Shown: positions 20,705 through 25,305 of the stretch, piece by piece
Position numbering within the stretch: position 1 is the first letter of the stretch
Layout: every line of letters starts with the position of its first letter
DNA from: Deltaproteobacteria bacterium
GTDB taxonomy: Bacteria > Desulfobacterota_D > UBA1144 > Nemesobacterales > UBA2774
Reading direction: 5' to 3'
Length of the DNA: 64,000 nucleotides
Assembly: GCA_029262275.1 (NCBI GenBank)
Contig: JAJCZS010000037.1
Location: forward strand, 1 to 64,000
Position numbers and translations under genes: made by a program
Notes under the pieces: generated by a model
Databases searched by the model: none
What the model saw: only the letters and a program-made list of their open reading frames with translations
Told to the model about the DNA's origin: nothing

Positions 20705-20732
20705 TTGACAGAAAAGATATATCTTGTATTAT
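20705..20732 (+). promoter_or_regulatory. Sigma70-type promoter of the small Cys-rich gene
   Basis: A perfect -35 TTGACA (20705-20710) and a -10 TATTAT (20727-20732, five of six) are separated by 16 bases. A Fur-box-like sequence begins on the next base. The small Cys-rich gene starts 90 bases downstream. Confidence 0.7.
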
Positions 20733-20751
20733 GATAATGAGAATGAAATTC
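20733..20751 (+). promoter_or_regulatory. Fur-box-like operator
   Basis: GATAATGAGAATGAAATTC agrees with the 19-base Fur consensus at 14 positions by my count and lies directly after the -10 element, where a bound repressor would block transcription. A second, weaker match sits in the same position relative to the downstream porin promoter, which strengthens both. Confidence 0.6.
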
Positions 20752-20822
20752 AATATTATAAATAGAGTTTGAATTTCGCTCAAGTAGTTTATAGGGAAAT
20801 AAATTTTCTAGGAGGTTTATAA

Positions 20823-21062
20823 ATGGGATTTTTATGCAAAGATAATAGGCCATTAGCACTTTCCTCGTCAAACATTGGCAGTATTTCACAGTGTTCTTGT
20901 TGTGAATCTTTTCACGTAACTATAGGAAATATAACACTCAGAATGGAAAGGAAGCACTTGATAAACCTTACTGAAATGGTCATTGAAGCTTTAGAAGTTA
21001 AGGCGGTATCAGAAAATACTTACCCCGATTTGTATATCAGGAACCAGGCACAAGATGCATAA
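20823..21062 (+). CDS. Small Cys-rich protein of unknown function, probably iron-regulated
   Basis: A 79-residue protein with no signal peptide or membrane segment. Its centre, ISQCSCCESFHVTIGNITLR (residues 21-40), has a CXCC cluster followed by a His four residues on, and Cys5 lies near the N-terminus, so metal or iron-sulfur binding is possible. I do not recognise the family with certainty; small proteins with a similar CXCC-H core and GNITLRM-like strand are known to me only as uncharacterised. The ATG follows a strong AGGAGG. It has its own promoter with a Fur-like box and its own terminator. Confidence 0.75.
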   Translation: MGFLCKDNRPLALSSSNIGSISQCSCCESFHVTIGNITLRMERKHLINLTEMVIEALEVKAVSENTYPDLYIRNQAQDA

Positions 21063-21092
21063 TTTTTGTCAATTGTCATAATTGCTATGAAG

Positions 21093-21161
21093 AGGGGCGG
21101 CATTCCTAATTAGTTATATATGCCTTTTTAACCTTAGCCAGCCGCCTCTCTTCTTTTTTTT
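21093..21161 (+). terminator. Terminator after the small Cys-rich gene
   Basis: AGGGGCGGC (21093-21101) pairs with GCCGCCTCT (21141-21149), with one G-U pair, and a T-rich run CTTCTTTTTTTT follows. The loop is unusually long (39 bases), so the fold may be more complex than a simple hairpin, but the stem and U-run are clear. Confidence 0.7.
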
Positions 21162-21187
21162 GTCCAGGCTAATTTCGACCAAGTGAA

Positions 21188-21205
21188 CCATAATTATGAT
21201 TATGG
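21188..21205. promoter_or_regulatory. Palindrome upstream of the porin promoter
   Basis: CCATAAT, four bases, ATTATGG: a perfect seven-base inverted repeat lying 12 bases upstream of the predicted -35 of the porin operon. The position fits an activator or second Fur-type site. AT-rich composition makes chance palindromes easier, so confidence is limited. Confidence 0.45.
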
Positions 21206-21216
21206 ATTTCAATTTG

Positions 21217-21269
21217 TTGACAATGGATAAGGGTCTGGTAGATTGATTTTGAAAACGAATATCAATATT
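21217..21269 (+). promoter_or_regulatory. Promoter and Fur-box-like operator of the porin operon
   Basis: TTGACA (21217-21222), 16 bases, TAGATT (21239-21244), then GAAAACGAATATCAATATT (21251-21269), which matches the 19-base Fur consensus at 13 positions by my count. The layout (promoter, then Fur-like site, then strong ribosome-binding site) copies that of the small Cys-rich gene 500 bases upstream. Confidence 0.6.
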
Positions 21270-21291
21270 AACTAAAGGAGGTTTGTACAGG

Positions 21292-22875
21292 ATGAGTAGA
21301 TTAGTAAGATTGCTAGGTGTTAGTTTAGTTTCCAAAGTTATTATTTCGTTTTTGTTGGTTTTTTTAATAGGATTTCCAATCGACGGCTTTTCCAAAGAAT
21401 TAAATCAAAACCAAAAGGAGTTCTCGAATTCTATAGATACATACAACAAAGTCAGAGCTCAGCAAATGGTTAAACAAGCTAAATACGAAGAAGTAAAGAA
21501 ATCTCAGAACATAGAAGTTGCTCAAAGGTTAAGTGATGATGAAACTGAGACTCAAGATGAAAGGATCAGGCAACTTGAGAATAAGCTTCAAAATGTAACA
21601 ACTGAATTACAAGAGCTTAAGAGCTCGGGTATGACGGATGACAGATTGCAATCAATAGAAGATAAGATAAGTGTTTTAGCTGAGGAAATAGATAATATAA
21701 AATCCGCATCAGTTGTCTCTGATCCGACCTATGAGCAGGTTTACGGAGCTGCTCCTGCGGCCTCAAAGGTATATCTTAAAGACAAGGGGTTATCGATCGG
21801 TGGTTATGGAGAGCTTCTTGTTGGTCAGGTTAGACAAGACGAAGATAATGTAGTCGATGCCCAAAGAGTTGTTCTCTATTTTGGATACAAATTCACTGAC
21901 AGAATAATTTTCAACTCTGAGATAGAGTTTGAGCATGGGACCACTTCTTCGAATCAAGATGATCGTTCAGGTTCGGTCTCGGCAGAATTTGCTTTACTCG
22001 ATTTTCTGCTCTGGCCAGAACTCAACCTAAGGGGTGGATTGCTACTTGCACCTTTTGGAATAGTAAATGAAATTCATGAGCCGACTACTTTCTTTGGAGT
22101 ATTCAGACCTTCAGTTGAGAGGTTTATTATTCCAACAACTTGGAGAGAAAACGGACTTGGTGTATTCGGAGACTTTGATTTAGGTGCTGCAGGATCAATT
22201 AACTACAGAGCTTATGTTATGAATAGTTTTGATGCCAGAGGATTTAGGGCAGTCAACAATAGAAACCTGCGTATAAAGGGTAACCGCGCACTATTTAATG
22301 ACGTGGCTTTTGTAAGCAGGGTCCAATACCAACCAGTTCCCTATGTGACAATAGGTGGTTCCATATTTCTTGGAAATACCGGGCAGGATCAGAAGATCAA
22401 TGATCCCGAGTCACCATTTAACGGGGATAAATTTGATGGTTTTTTCCAGATGTATGAGGCTGATATACAGCTACAGTATGCAGGATTTGAAGGAAGGGCG
22501 CTTGTTACGTATACAAGTCTCGACGATGTTGCAAGGATAAATGCTTTGAATGATTTTGAAGGCGATGAGTCTGTTGGAAGTGAGCAGTGGGGTTATTATG
22601 TAGTAGGTGCATATAATGTGCTGTCACTCGCTGATTTTACAAACCAGTATGCTCAGTATTTAGCACCTTTTGTTAGATGGGAGCAGTATGATACTCAAGC
22701 TAAAGTGCCGACAGGATTCTTTAGAAACCCAGCTAATAACAGGAGCGACCTTACAATTGGGTTAAATTATAAGCCAATACCAAACGTAGTAGTTAAAGCG
22801 GAATATCAGTATCTAGAAAATAATGCAAATGAATCTGAGAATCAATTTAATTTCGGACTTGGATATGTGTTCTAA
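21292..22875 (+). CDS. Outer-membrane porin with N-terminal coiled coil
   Basis: A 527-residue exported protein. I start at ATG 21292, ten bases after AAAGGAGG; the TTG at 21283 is too close to that site. A signal peptide (about residues 1-32) is followed by a polar Gln/Glu/Lys-rich coiled coil to about residue 135 with heptad-like leucines (IRQLENKLQNVTTELQELKS). The rest is rich in alternating aromatic strands (GYGELLVGQVRQD, FILFWPEL-like LLWPELNLRGGLLLAPFGI) and ends in Phe (NFGLGYVF), as in phosphate-selective-porin-like barrels. The coiled coil may trimerise or span the periplasm. First gene of an iron-regulated-looking operon. Confidence 0.85.
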   Translation: MSRLVRLLGVSLVSKVIISFLLVFLIGFPIDGFSKELNQNQKEFSNSIDTYNKVRAQQMVKQAKYEEVKKSQNIEVAQRLSDDETETQDERIRQLENKLQNVTTELQELKSSGMTDDRLQSIEDKISVLAEEIDNIKSASVVSDPTYEQVYGAAPAASKVYLKDKGLSIGGYGELLVGQVRQDEDNVVDAQRVVLYFGYKFTDRIIFNSEIEFEHGTTSSNQDDRSGSVSAEFALLDFLLWPELNLRGGLLLAPFGIVNEIHEPTTFFGVFRPSVERFIIPTTWRENGLGVFGDFDLGAAGSINYRAYVMNSFDARGFRAVNNRNLRIKGNRALFNDVAFVSRVQYQPVPYVTIGGSIFLGNTGQDQKINDPESPFNGDKFDGFFQMYEADIQLQYAGFEGRALVTYTSLDDVARINALNDFEGDESVGSEQWGYYVVGAYNVLSLADFTNQYAQYLAPFVRWEQYDTQAKVPTGFFRNPANNRSDLTIGLNYKPIPNVVVKAEYQYLENNANESENQFNFGLGYVF

Positions 22876-22901
22876 GTCTGGTTTAATATAAGCCAATTGT
22901 T

Positions 22902-22940
22902 TGGGCGTAGAAACTAGTTTTCTGCGCCCATTTTATTTTA
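22902..22940 (+). terminator. Terminator or attenuator after the porin
   Basis: TGGGCGTAGAAA pairs with TTTCTGCGCCCA around a short loop, one mismatch-type G-U/C pair in the stem, and a TTTTATTTTA run follows. It lies between the porin and the FMN-binding gene only 19 bases further on, so it probably reduces rather than abolishes downstream expression, giving more porin than reductase. Confidence 0.75.
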
Positions 22941-22958
22941 TGAGGATATTTTCAAATC

Positions 22959-23510
22959 ATGCGACAGACTAATTTGTTCATATTATTTATAATCCTATCT
23001 TTTGGTTTTGTTTCTTCTCTGGAAGCCAAAGTTTTCATGAAGCGGGATGAAGCTCTTAGTACCGCTTTCCCTGATGCTGCAGAGATTGAAAAGAATGAAA
23101 TATTTTTATCATCTGATCAATCCAAGGCCATTGAGTCTTTAGCCAGAGCTAAGAATGAATCTAAACTATATATAATTTATGAGGCTAAAAACGGCGAGAA
23201 AACTCTAGGTTATGCTATAATAGATACCCATAGCCTTAGGACCAAGACTGAAACTGTGATGTTTGTAATAAACCCAGATGGTACCTTGAAGCAGACTGAG
23301 GTGCTGGCGTTTTTTGAGCCCCAGGATTATCAAGCAGGTGGAAATTGGATGGAACTGTTTGAAGGGAAAAACTCAGATGACAGTTTAAAAGTGGGTAAGG
23401 ATATTCCGAACATTACTGGAGCTACAATAACTGCAAATTCTTTATCTCAGGCGACAAGGAGAATACTTGCAGTATTTAAAGTAGCATCGGAGCAAGGACA
23501 GTTAAACTAG
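22959..23510 (+). CDS. Exported FMN-binding domain protein
   Basis: A 183-residue protein with a signal peptide or N-terminal anchor (residues 5-23, ending LEAKV). The C-terminal half is an FMN-binding domain (PF04205 type): TLGYAIIDTHSLR near residue 82, MFVINPDGTLKQTEVLAFFE, and the flavin-attachment-like motif NITGATITANSLSQATRR at 151-168. In NqrC and RnfG a Thr of the related SGAT motif carries covalent FMN; here T156 is the candidate. Members move electrons in the periplasm. It stands between a porin and a membrane protein with paired histidines, so I infer an envelope electron-transfer role. Confidence 0.85.
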   Translation: MRQTNLFILFIILSFGFVSSLEAKVFMKRDEALSTAFPDAAEIEKNEIFLSSDQSKAIESLARAKNESKLYIIYEAKNGEKTLGYAIIDTHSLRTKTETVMFVINPDGTLKQTEVLAFFEPQDYQAGGNWMELFEGKNSDDSLKVGKDIPNITGATITANSLSQATRRILAVFKVASEQGQLN

Positions 23511-23527
23511 TATAGGATCAAAGACAC

Positions 23528-24022
23528 GTGCGCTTTTTCATTTCATCTGATATAACTAAAAATACGCTTTTAAAAATGATTGTTGCCTTTACGGTACTCT
23601 TTTTCCTTTTTCTATGGATTACTAATCTTCTTTTGTATCTCCAAATAGGTTTTAGCTATGATTCAGTGGTTCAATATTATCTCGGTTCTGAGGCGGATTT
23701 TAGGCCTCCCAGGAGCTATTTGGGAATGCTTGAAGAGGCTCATTTTCACTTCTTTGCAATGGCCATAATTCTTGTAACACTAAATCACCTAATCTTATTT
23801 ACAAAGATCAGCAATTTCTGGAAGTTAGTCTTAATTTTGTCATCTTTCTTATCTGCTTTGGGTGATATAGCTGGGGGATGGCTGATTCGTTATGTAAGCC
23901 CTGAGTTTGCGTACCTAAAGATAGCATCCTTAATCGTTCTACAGGTCTCACTGGCAGCACTTATGATAATAGTGATATGGTATCTCTATGGCTACGGTGA
24001 CAAGAAAGGGGGTTATGGTTAA
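23528..24022 (+). CDS. Four-helix membrane protein with paired histidines
   Basis: A 164-residue integral membrane protein with hydrophobic segments at about 15-40, 70-92, 99-121 and 127-153. The second helix begins EEAHFHFFAMAI with H72 and H74, and H87 lies about four helical turns later, a spacing that could serve haem or metal. Such proteins are sometimes found beside FMN-binding proteins, which would make this the membrane electron donor, but I cannot name a family. The start is GTG 23528, 17 bases after the FMN gene. It converges on the next gene with a four-base overlap. Confidence 0.7.
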   Translation: MRFFISSDITKNTLLKMIVAFTVLFFLFLWITNLLLYLQIGFSYDSVVQYYLGSEADFRPPRSYLGMLEEAHFHFFAMAIILVTLNHLILFTKISNFWKLVLILSSFLSALGDIAGGWLIRYVSPEFAYLKIASLIVLQVSLAALMIIVIWYLYGYGDKKGGYG

Positions 24023-25305
24023 TTTAGCTTCAATTTCTTTCTAAGTTTACCTACATCATAATAAGGCTCACCAAGTTTTTTAGCATGCTCATATATTGTT
24101 TCAAGCTCATCTATCATCGATATTAACTTCAACTTCCCTTCTTTACTTTTTAAAGCTTCTTTAGGAGACTTGCCCCCTAGGATTTCAAGTGGGTTATCTA
24201 TCCATTTATCGTAATGATTATCGAGCTCCAAATCGAGCTCCTTTTTGTTTTTAACTCCAAGCGGGAGTTTCTTTAACTTCTTAGACTCACTTTTAGATCT
24301 ATCAAGAAAAGTATCGAGCTCTTTAGTGCTATCTTCTATGTGTGTGATGGATTCCCCACACTGTTTTTCTATCTTTTCTTTTGCTTTTGCTAGCATTTCC
24401 AATGAATAGCATTCGAGCCGCAATTTTGATTCTTCTACTTCTAGCGTGCCTGTAATCTGATTTCTTCCTATTTTTTCCCACGAGAAAACTCTAAGTTCCT
24501 CAGCTTCGTTACTGATTTCTTTTAAAGATTTAACCTTCTCTATACTTTTTATGCAGCCCTTGTAATCATCAACTCTATAATTCGCTGTAGATAGAACAAA
24601 TTCATCACCTTCGGGAGTAAGAAAATGAGGGTGACTGGCAACATCTTCGATATATGAGCCAATCTGATATCCCCAATCTTTTAGGTATTGCTTCTTGTTT
24701 CTCTCAACCCCATGGAGATTCTGATATTCCTTAAATTCCTGATCAAAAAATTCAACTATGAGATTCTTGAAAGTAGGGGGATATAGCGACACGACTCCTG
24801 AGAAGTAAGTTTGGGTACCAATTTTAAGAGGCCTTGCTGCTATTATATCGGTACGTCTGATTTGTTTGGATGATGCTTTATCTACAACTTCAAAAGTTCT
24901 TCCGGTAAAAATATCCTTTATTATGTAAATACCACCATCTAAAACTTCTTGCACTTCAAAAAAGCTGTGAATGCTCCTAATCCAATCTTTAATGAGTTTC
25001 TTCTCGGCACCTGACAGGTCTGACCTTTCATCTAAATAGAACTTTTCTATAACTCTCTCTTCAGAGTCAAAAACCTTAAAGTCATATAAGAACCAATCAT
25101 AGAACTTCTCAAATGTTAGTTCATCTATTTGATCCTCTTCTAGATTCTCGCTAGTAAAATTAGGATCATTCTTCCAGATGTAAAAAGCCTCTCCCAATTG
25201 TGACTGGATTTCCTCGCGCTCGGAGTAATCCACCAACTTTGTCTTCAGCTCTTTTTCAGACTGGTCTAACTTGTGTTGTGATATATCCACTACGGAATCT
25301 GTCAT
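24019..25305 (-). CDS. Unrecognised 428-residue cytoplasmic protein
   Basis: A soluble, charged protein without signal peptide or membrane segments. I do not recognise the first 370 residues. A middle part (FEVQEVLDGGIYIIKDIFTGRTFEV, near 115-140, in shorter pieces VLDGGIYIIKDIFTG) looks like a small beta domain. The end, HYDKWIDNPLEILGGKSPKEA then about 20 residues to an acidic helix, resembles the W-x-D-x-P-L-x-x-L-G-G-x-T/S-P-x-E-A tail seen in some SEC-C and zinc-finger proteins, but there is no SEC-C cysteine motif. Monocistronic. No function is proposed. Confidence 0.7.
   Translation of the reverse strand: MTDSVVDISQHKLDQSEKELKTKLVDYSEREEIQSQLGEAFYIWKNDPNFTSENLEEDQIDELTFEKFYDWFLYDFKVFDSEERVIEKFYLDERSDLSGAEKKLIKDWIRSIHSFFEVQEVLDGGIYIIKDIFTGRTFEVVDKASSKQIRRTDIIAARPLKIGTQTYFSGVVSLYPPTFKNLIVEFFDQEFKEYQNLHGVERNKKQYLKDWGYQIGSYIEDVASHPHFLTPEGDEFVLSTANYRVDDYKGCIKSIEKVKSLKEISNEAEELRVFSWEKIGRNQITGTLEVEESKLRLECYSLEMLAKAKEKIEKQCGESITHIEDSTKELDTFLDRSKSESKKLKKLPLGVKNKKELDLELDNHYDKWIDNPLEILGGKSPKEALKSKEGKLKLISMIDELETIYEHAKKLGEPYYDVGKLRKKLKLN

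Follow-up and report, generated by a model that had tools for sequence, protein, structure and literature searches.

A Fur-boxed porin, flavoprotein and membrane protein cassette in Dadabacteria, a probable reductive iron uptake system linked to FTR1

What might an outer-membrane porin, an exported flavoprotein and a small membrane protein do together, behind promoters that look like targets of the regulator Fur? The question is raised by a 64,000-nucleotide stretch of DNA (the window; positions are counted from its first letter), which is part of contig JAJCZS010000037.1 (C37) from a genome of 2.48 Mb and 97% completeness (GCA_029262275.1), the closest named relatives of which are Candidatus Dadabacteria metagenome-assembled genomes. 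Four genes are read from the + strand: gene A (20823-21062) encodes a soluble CxxC protein of 79 residues, gene B (21292-22875) an outer-membrane porin with an N-terminal periplasmic coiled coil and a 16-strand barrel, gene C (22959-23510) an exported FMN_bind protein similar to RnfG and NqrC, and gene D (23528-24022) a protein of four transmembrane helices (TM1 to TM4) with invariant E69, H72, H74, H87 and W118. A first-pass annotation made from the sequence had placed these four genes, both of their promoters and two Fur-like sites, and every one of these positions was borne out. We consider it probable that the cassette is a Fur-repressed, ApbE-flavinylated reductive iron uptake system coupled to the permease FTR1, in which D is the membrane electron donor and no TonB receptor takes part.

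Conservation and Fur sites of the cassette

The order B-C-D was found in nearly all loci examined, even where all other neighbours differ, and it is kept in genomes of only 0.8-1.1 Mb (family f8; the relatives are referred to by family, f1 to f8). Of 58 Dadabacteria genomes, 42 have D, which also occurs on contigs labelled Gammaproteobacteria and Deltaproteobacteria. The first-pass annotation had proposed a cluster of four families and had named a lack of conservation in relatives as the result that would speak against it; B-C-D proved to be conserved across the phylum, whereas relatives of A occur only in f1 and in some members of f2. Protein A is a remote relative of DUF6686 (22.4 bits, E 1.3e-4, just below the curated cut-off of 23.9), and the CXCC motif once assigned to it reduces to its outer cysteines (CxxC), which alone are conserved. 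It is probably a cytosolic accessory. Folding of positions 21063-21170 gave a strong hairpin followed by a T-run, an intrinsic terminator at about 21089-21153 (+); because this hairpin ends gene A, A and B-C-D form separate transcription units.

In a consensus scan of the + strand, the two best promoters of the region were those of A (20705-20732; sigma70-type, TTGACA-16-TATTAT, 11/12) and of B-C-D (21217-21244; TTGACA-16-TAGATT with a TG extension, 10/12). At both, Fur-like sites lie directly 3' of the -10 box. The site of gene A consists of three overlapping 19-mers phased by 6 bp (20727-20757, +; starts at 20727, 20733 and 20739; 14/19 of the consensus), and that of B-C-D of two such 19-mers (21245-21269, +; starts at 21245 and 21251), with a weaker Fur-like 19-mer at 21192-21210 (+). 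By plain consensus counting over the 130 bp upstream these boxes are modest, with 14/19 for A (p 0.019) and 13/19 for B (p 0.06), and because such counting alone is insufficient, the case for Fur sites rests on the relatives and on a genome-wide scan. We built a matrix from the orthologous promoter sites of relatives, with the sites of the window and the promoters of FTR1 and fur left out. Across the 64 kb of the window, the overlapping 19-mers of the two sites rank as the top four (18.6, 18.3, 16.5 and 14.4), where a score of 16 is reached by chance about once per Mb; part of this rank reflects common descent. Independent support came from the same genome, where the promoter of a fur gene on contig C29 scores 23.5 and that of FTR1 on contig C14 scores 21.7. 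A degenerate Fur pattern, relaxed far enough to admit the window sites, has six matches in the whole genome, and the reversed control pattern has one. Four of the six are intergenic, lying ahead of fur, FTR1, A and B and of no other gene; the other two (C14:101134 and C29:75759) lie within coding sequence and were discarded as chance matches. The relatives carry stronger boxes in the same places, with up to 17/19 before A and 16/19 before B.

Iron regulation of the cassette through these predicted Fur sites is well supported, and the matrix ranking, the boxes of the relatives and the genome-wide distribution of boxes strengthen what the first-pass annotation had suggested. Since the genome has Fur-family genes (PF01475) at three loci (best E 5e-36), the cassette might instead act on another metal, as a redox system for dissimilation or detoxification, under control of the Zur or Mur type. 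The sites, however, match the Fur box in its classical form, a box that also stands before a fur gene and before FTR1, so that we regard this explanation as very improbable.

A different element is seen upstream of B in families f4, f7 and f8. There, in place of a Fur box, a conserved palindrome ATTATGGATAT-NNN-ATATCCATAAT, often followed by ATATCTA, lies just 3' of the -10 box (L040:3937, L045:3929, L050:3927, L067:5276, L065:9564 and others). Because the palindrome replaces the Fur box, another regulator may have taken over the cassette in these families, perhaps one of the Rrf2 type.

Predicted flavinylation of C and the nature of D

Protein C scores above the Pfam cut-off for FMN_bind (PF04205; 25.8 bits versus 22), aligns with the RnfG profile at E 5e-8, flavinylation motif included, and has a signal peptide visible in its sequence. 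The motif, TGAT, is encoded at 23415-23426 (+; residues 153-156), with Thr156 as the predicted acceptor, and [T/S]-G-A-T is present in most members of families f1 to f7. C is the sole FMN_bind gene found in the genome, in which one ApbE was found as well, with a lipobox-like CISC at its N-terminus. In families f2, f4, f7 and f8 an ApbE gene lies within or beside the cassette: the order is A-ApbE-B-C-D in L044 and L047 and B-C-ApbE-D in L073, a convergent ApbE gene accompanies B-C-D in L048 and L050, and one lies nearby in L065, L066 and L070. Among Dadabacteria, ApbE was present in 40 of the 42 genomes with D and in 3 of the 16 without it (counts 40/2/3/13); counted by genus the figures are 17/0/1/4. 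This linkage is consistent with covalent flavinylation of C by ApbE. Both ApbE and FTR1 had been missed in the first-pass annotation, which had correctly grouped porin, flavin mononucleotide-binding protein and membrane protein.

The ApbE proteins themselves differ. A lone ApbE of family f1 (L081:6411-7418; also g7 and g11) has about 33% identity to the cassette-borne L044:2878-3885 and L047:2748-3740, and is 48-73% identical to other lone ApbEs; it seems that the cassette is served by ApbEs of two lineages. A search for a Fur box before the stand-alone apbE of this genus found none.

Protein D has helices at residues 13-40, 64-89, 96-122 and 125-154. H72, H74 and H87 are invariant in 19 aligned sequences, with E69 and W118 also invariant in D of the cassette family. 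The codons of the three histidines (23741-23788, +) all fall on TM2, and the positive-inside rule would put H72 and H74 near the periplasmic end. Two-haem b cytochromes, with axial histidines about 13-14 residues apart in one helix, have a spacing like that of H74 and H87, which lie 13 residues apart; in D a second axial pair would need a dimer, in which four ligands would be available. D matched no family in Pfam (at E up to 1) or in NCBIfam, and nothing significant in the PDB, whether by sequence or by fold. Remote homologues occur in 33 of 399 genomes of the phylum to which the genome of the Gammaproteobacteria contig belongs, and a profile comparison relates them to D at E 2.7e-11. In those that we read, a segment with CxxCH is inserted between TM1 and TM2, and H72, H74 and W118 are kept, but not E69. 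These genes of about 250 codons (L118-L141), which match no Pfam family over cut-off, often stand beside genes for small and multihaem cytochromes c. No other clue to electron transfer by D is as strong as these homologues, with their CxxCH and their frequent place beside cytochrome c genes.

Two other roles for D have to be weighed here. In the first, D would be a metal-binding conduit in which the ExxH pair E69/H72, together with H74 and H87, passes ferrous iron, with C only keeping the iron reduced. The four residues are invariant in the cassette family, and the operon that includes D belongs to an iron system, as this role would have it. Yet a permease is already present in FTR1, and the remote homologues keep H72 and H74 but not E69 and H87, while their haem-c motif and their place beside cytochromes c argue for electron transfer; we judge a conduit unlikely. 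In the second, C and D would serve iron-sparing respiration, replacing a periplasmic haem or iron-sulphur carrier; the porin would have a general nutrient role and no iron would be handled. Flavin carriers do substitute for iron proteins, and homologues of D do adjoin cytochromes c. But two families have FTR1 next to the cassette and others have it in the Fur regulon, the porin gene is always first in the operon, and a D that bears haem would save no iron, which together make this explanation improbable, even more so than a conduit.

Porin B, FTR1 and the proposed route of iron

A model of B (AlphaFold2, mean predicted local distance difference test score 63.5) has helices at residues 33-80, 88-111 and 116-140, followed by 16 strands. 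Foldseek matched it to porins of the OmpC, OmpF and OmpM1 type, with E down to 3e-12. OmpM1 likewise has a periplasmic helical stalk. The barrel of B matches the coiled-coil porins of the OmpM1 type (Veillonella; PDB 8bys) at E 1e-10; OmpC/OmpF-type barrels match it equally well, and Pfam finds no cell-wall-binding domain in B. In the gap between B and C lies a terminator- or attenuator-like hairpin (22902-22930, +), and a stem was present there in nearly all relatives tested, with a sequence that differs between families, as if it were kept as an attenuator or an element of mRNA stability; it may set a higher dose of the porin.

The FTR1 gene adjoins the cassette in family f7 and in several genomes of f8 (G048, G049, G053 and G054). 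A Fur box precedes FTR1 in the window genome and in all nine f1 and f2 relatives tested (14.4-23.8 with the relatives' matrix). In the window genome the permease carries a fused cytochrome c domain (L092:4066-6276 on contig C14, - strand; strong Fur box upstream). Presence and absence alone do not associate D with FTR1 significantly (p 0.066), and for this reason we argue from adjacency and from the Fur boxes in common; on these, the linkage of the cassette to FTR1 is well supported. The first-pass annotation had proposed that the system reduces or imports iron: the link to import is now direct, through adjacency and the shared box, while its redox steps are still ones that we infer.

Taken together, the following route is proposed. 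Iron limitation would release Fur from both promoters. Iron, as weak chelates, would enter through porin B, with its periplasmic coiled-coil stalk. C would be exported and flavinylated covalently by the lipoprotein ApbE. D, probably as a b-type cytochrome that forms a homodimer and uses H74 and H87, and H72 as well, would take electrons from the quinol pool of the membrane and pass them to the flavin of C, where Fe(III) would be reduced. The reduced iron would then be imported by FTR1, the fused cytochrome c domain of which could re-oxidise it at the permease. The gene content, its conservation, the Fur sites and the linkage to ApbE and FTR1 are observed; the direction of electron flow, with each of its transfer steps, the flavinylation of C, the haem in D and the handling of iron by B and C are what we infer.

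Several observations weigh against this route. A clear Fur box is missing in L073 and in families f4, f7 and f8, and in some genomes of f8 the cassette is present and FTR1 was not detected. The flavinylation motif of f8 is altered (SNST, AGST or SGST), with the Thr kept. In the window genome, apbE lies away from the cassette and has no Fur box, and its product shares only about 33% identity with the f2 cassette ApbEs, so that it may be of a different lineage. H87 is not kept in the homologues of D that bear haem c, and the confidence of the B model is low, as its mean score indicates.

Two neighbours of the cassette belong to no assigned family. At 24019-25305 (-) the window encodes a protein of 428 residues without a Pfam family, the place of which beside the cassette is conserved in many relatives; near the N-terminus, its f2 versions have a stretch, CxCGSGKK...CC, that is similar to a SEC-C motif. 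In f8, a small exported protein of 116-130 residues stands beside the cassette (L065:9647-10039, L066:9830-10201 and L070:6723-7073), and in L070 beside FTR1 too; it is a candidate periplasmic iron carrier.

Comparison with known systems

Dadabacteria are widespread and uncultured, and they keep the cassette even in streamlined genomes of about 1 Mb. Because the window genome has a single TonB-receptor plug domain, a route through porin and flavin may be a main route for iron. The proposal assigns a concrete task to the ApbE and FMN_bind proteins of Dadabacteria, supplies FTR1 uptake with a porin in the outer membrane, and singles out D as a candidate class of membrane electron carrier. The first-pass annotation knew of no named system with this gene set, and in the open-licence literature we likewise found no name for the cassette and no paper describing it.

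Flavinylation is tied to iron assimilation elsewhere, in P19/FTR1 clusters with FMN_bind genes and in Fur-repressed PepSY clusters (PMC8238504). With P19/FTR1 (FetMP-like) clusters, some of which have an FMN_bind gene, the cassette shares Fur control, FTR1, the lack of a dedicated TonB receptor and an extracytosolic redox protein, there of the FMN_bind or thioredoxin type (PMC8238504, PMC6083913). For the P19 system the outer-membrane step is given as unidentified (PMC6083913). Unlike those clusters, the cassette has no adjoining thioredoxin or ABC genes in the loci that we read, and has a dedicated porin and D instead. P19 itself (PF10634) was found in 1 of the 58 genomes of the phylum and not in the window genome; membership of the P19 system was rejected on its absence from the other 57.

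In the flavinylation-associated systems described so far (NapH, MsrQ, PepSY, DsbD, NQR/RNF-like and DUF4405/FezC), as here, ApbE and an FMN_bind protein are combined with a membrane protein; several of the membrane partners have conserved histidines and several of the systems are tied to iron (PMC8238504, PMC11334425). Membrane cytochromes beside ApbE are also known (PMC11334425). D, by comparison, with four helices and three histidines, matches none of the Pfam domains of those partners, and the porin is a fixed member of the cassette, whereas the word 'porin' is absent from both of these papers. FezC, the ferrosome cytochrome, is a small membrane protein for which haem sites have been proposed to form by homodimerisation (PMC11334425); D is likened to it by analogy only, and belongs to an envelope cassette rather than to a ferrosome cluster. 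Protein C has the same FMN_bind fold and an aligned flavinylation motif as RnfG and NqrC, in a cassette without other Rnf or Nqr subunits. Because P19 is missing, D matches no described partner and the porin is fixed, the cassette is a distinct variant among the flavinylation and FTR1 iron systems.

A further parallel may lie in yeast. By analogy with Fre and Fet3/Ftr1, the cassette would be an unnamed bacterial form of reductive uptake, in which flavinylated C and D, as a new family of membrane cytochrome, make up a split flavocytochrome that reduces periplasmic iron behind its own porin, and the cytochrome c-FTR1 fusion re-oxidises and imports the iron. The cytochrome c domain of this fusion makes oxidation at the permease, as in Fet3/Ftr1, possible. 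We put this parallel forward tentatively, at somewhat less than even chances; if it holds, the membrane electron carriers associated with flavinylation would gain a new class in D.

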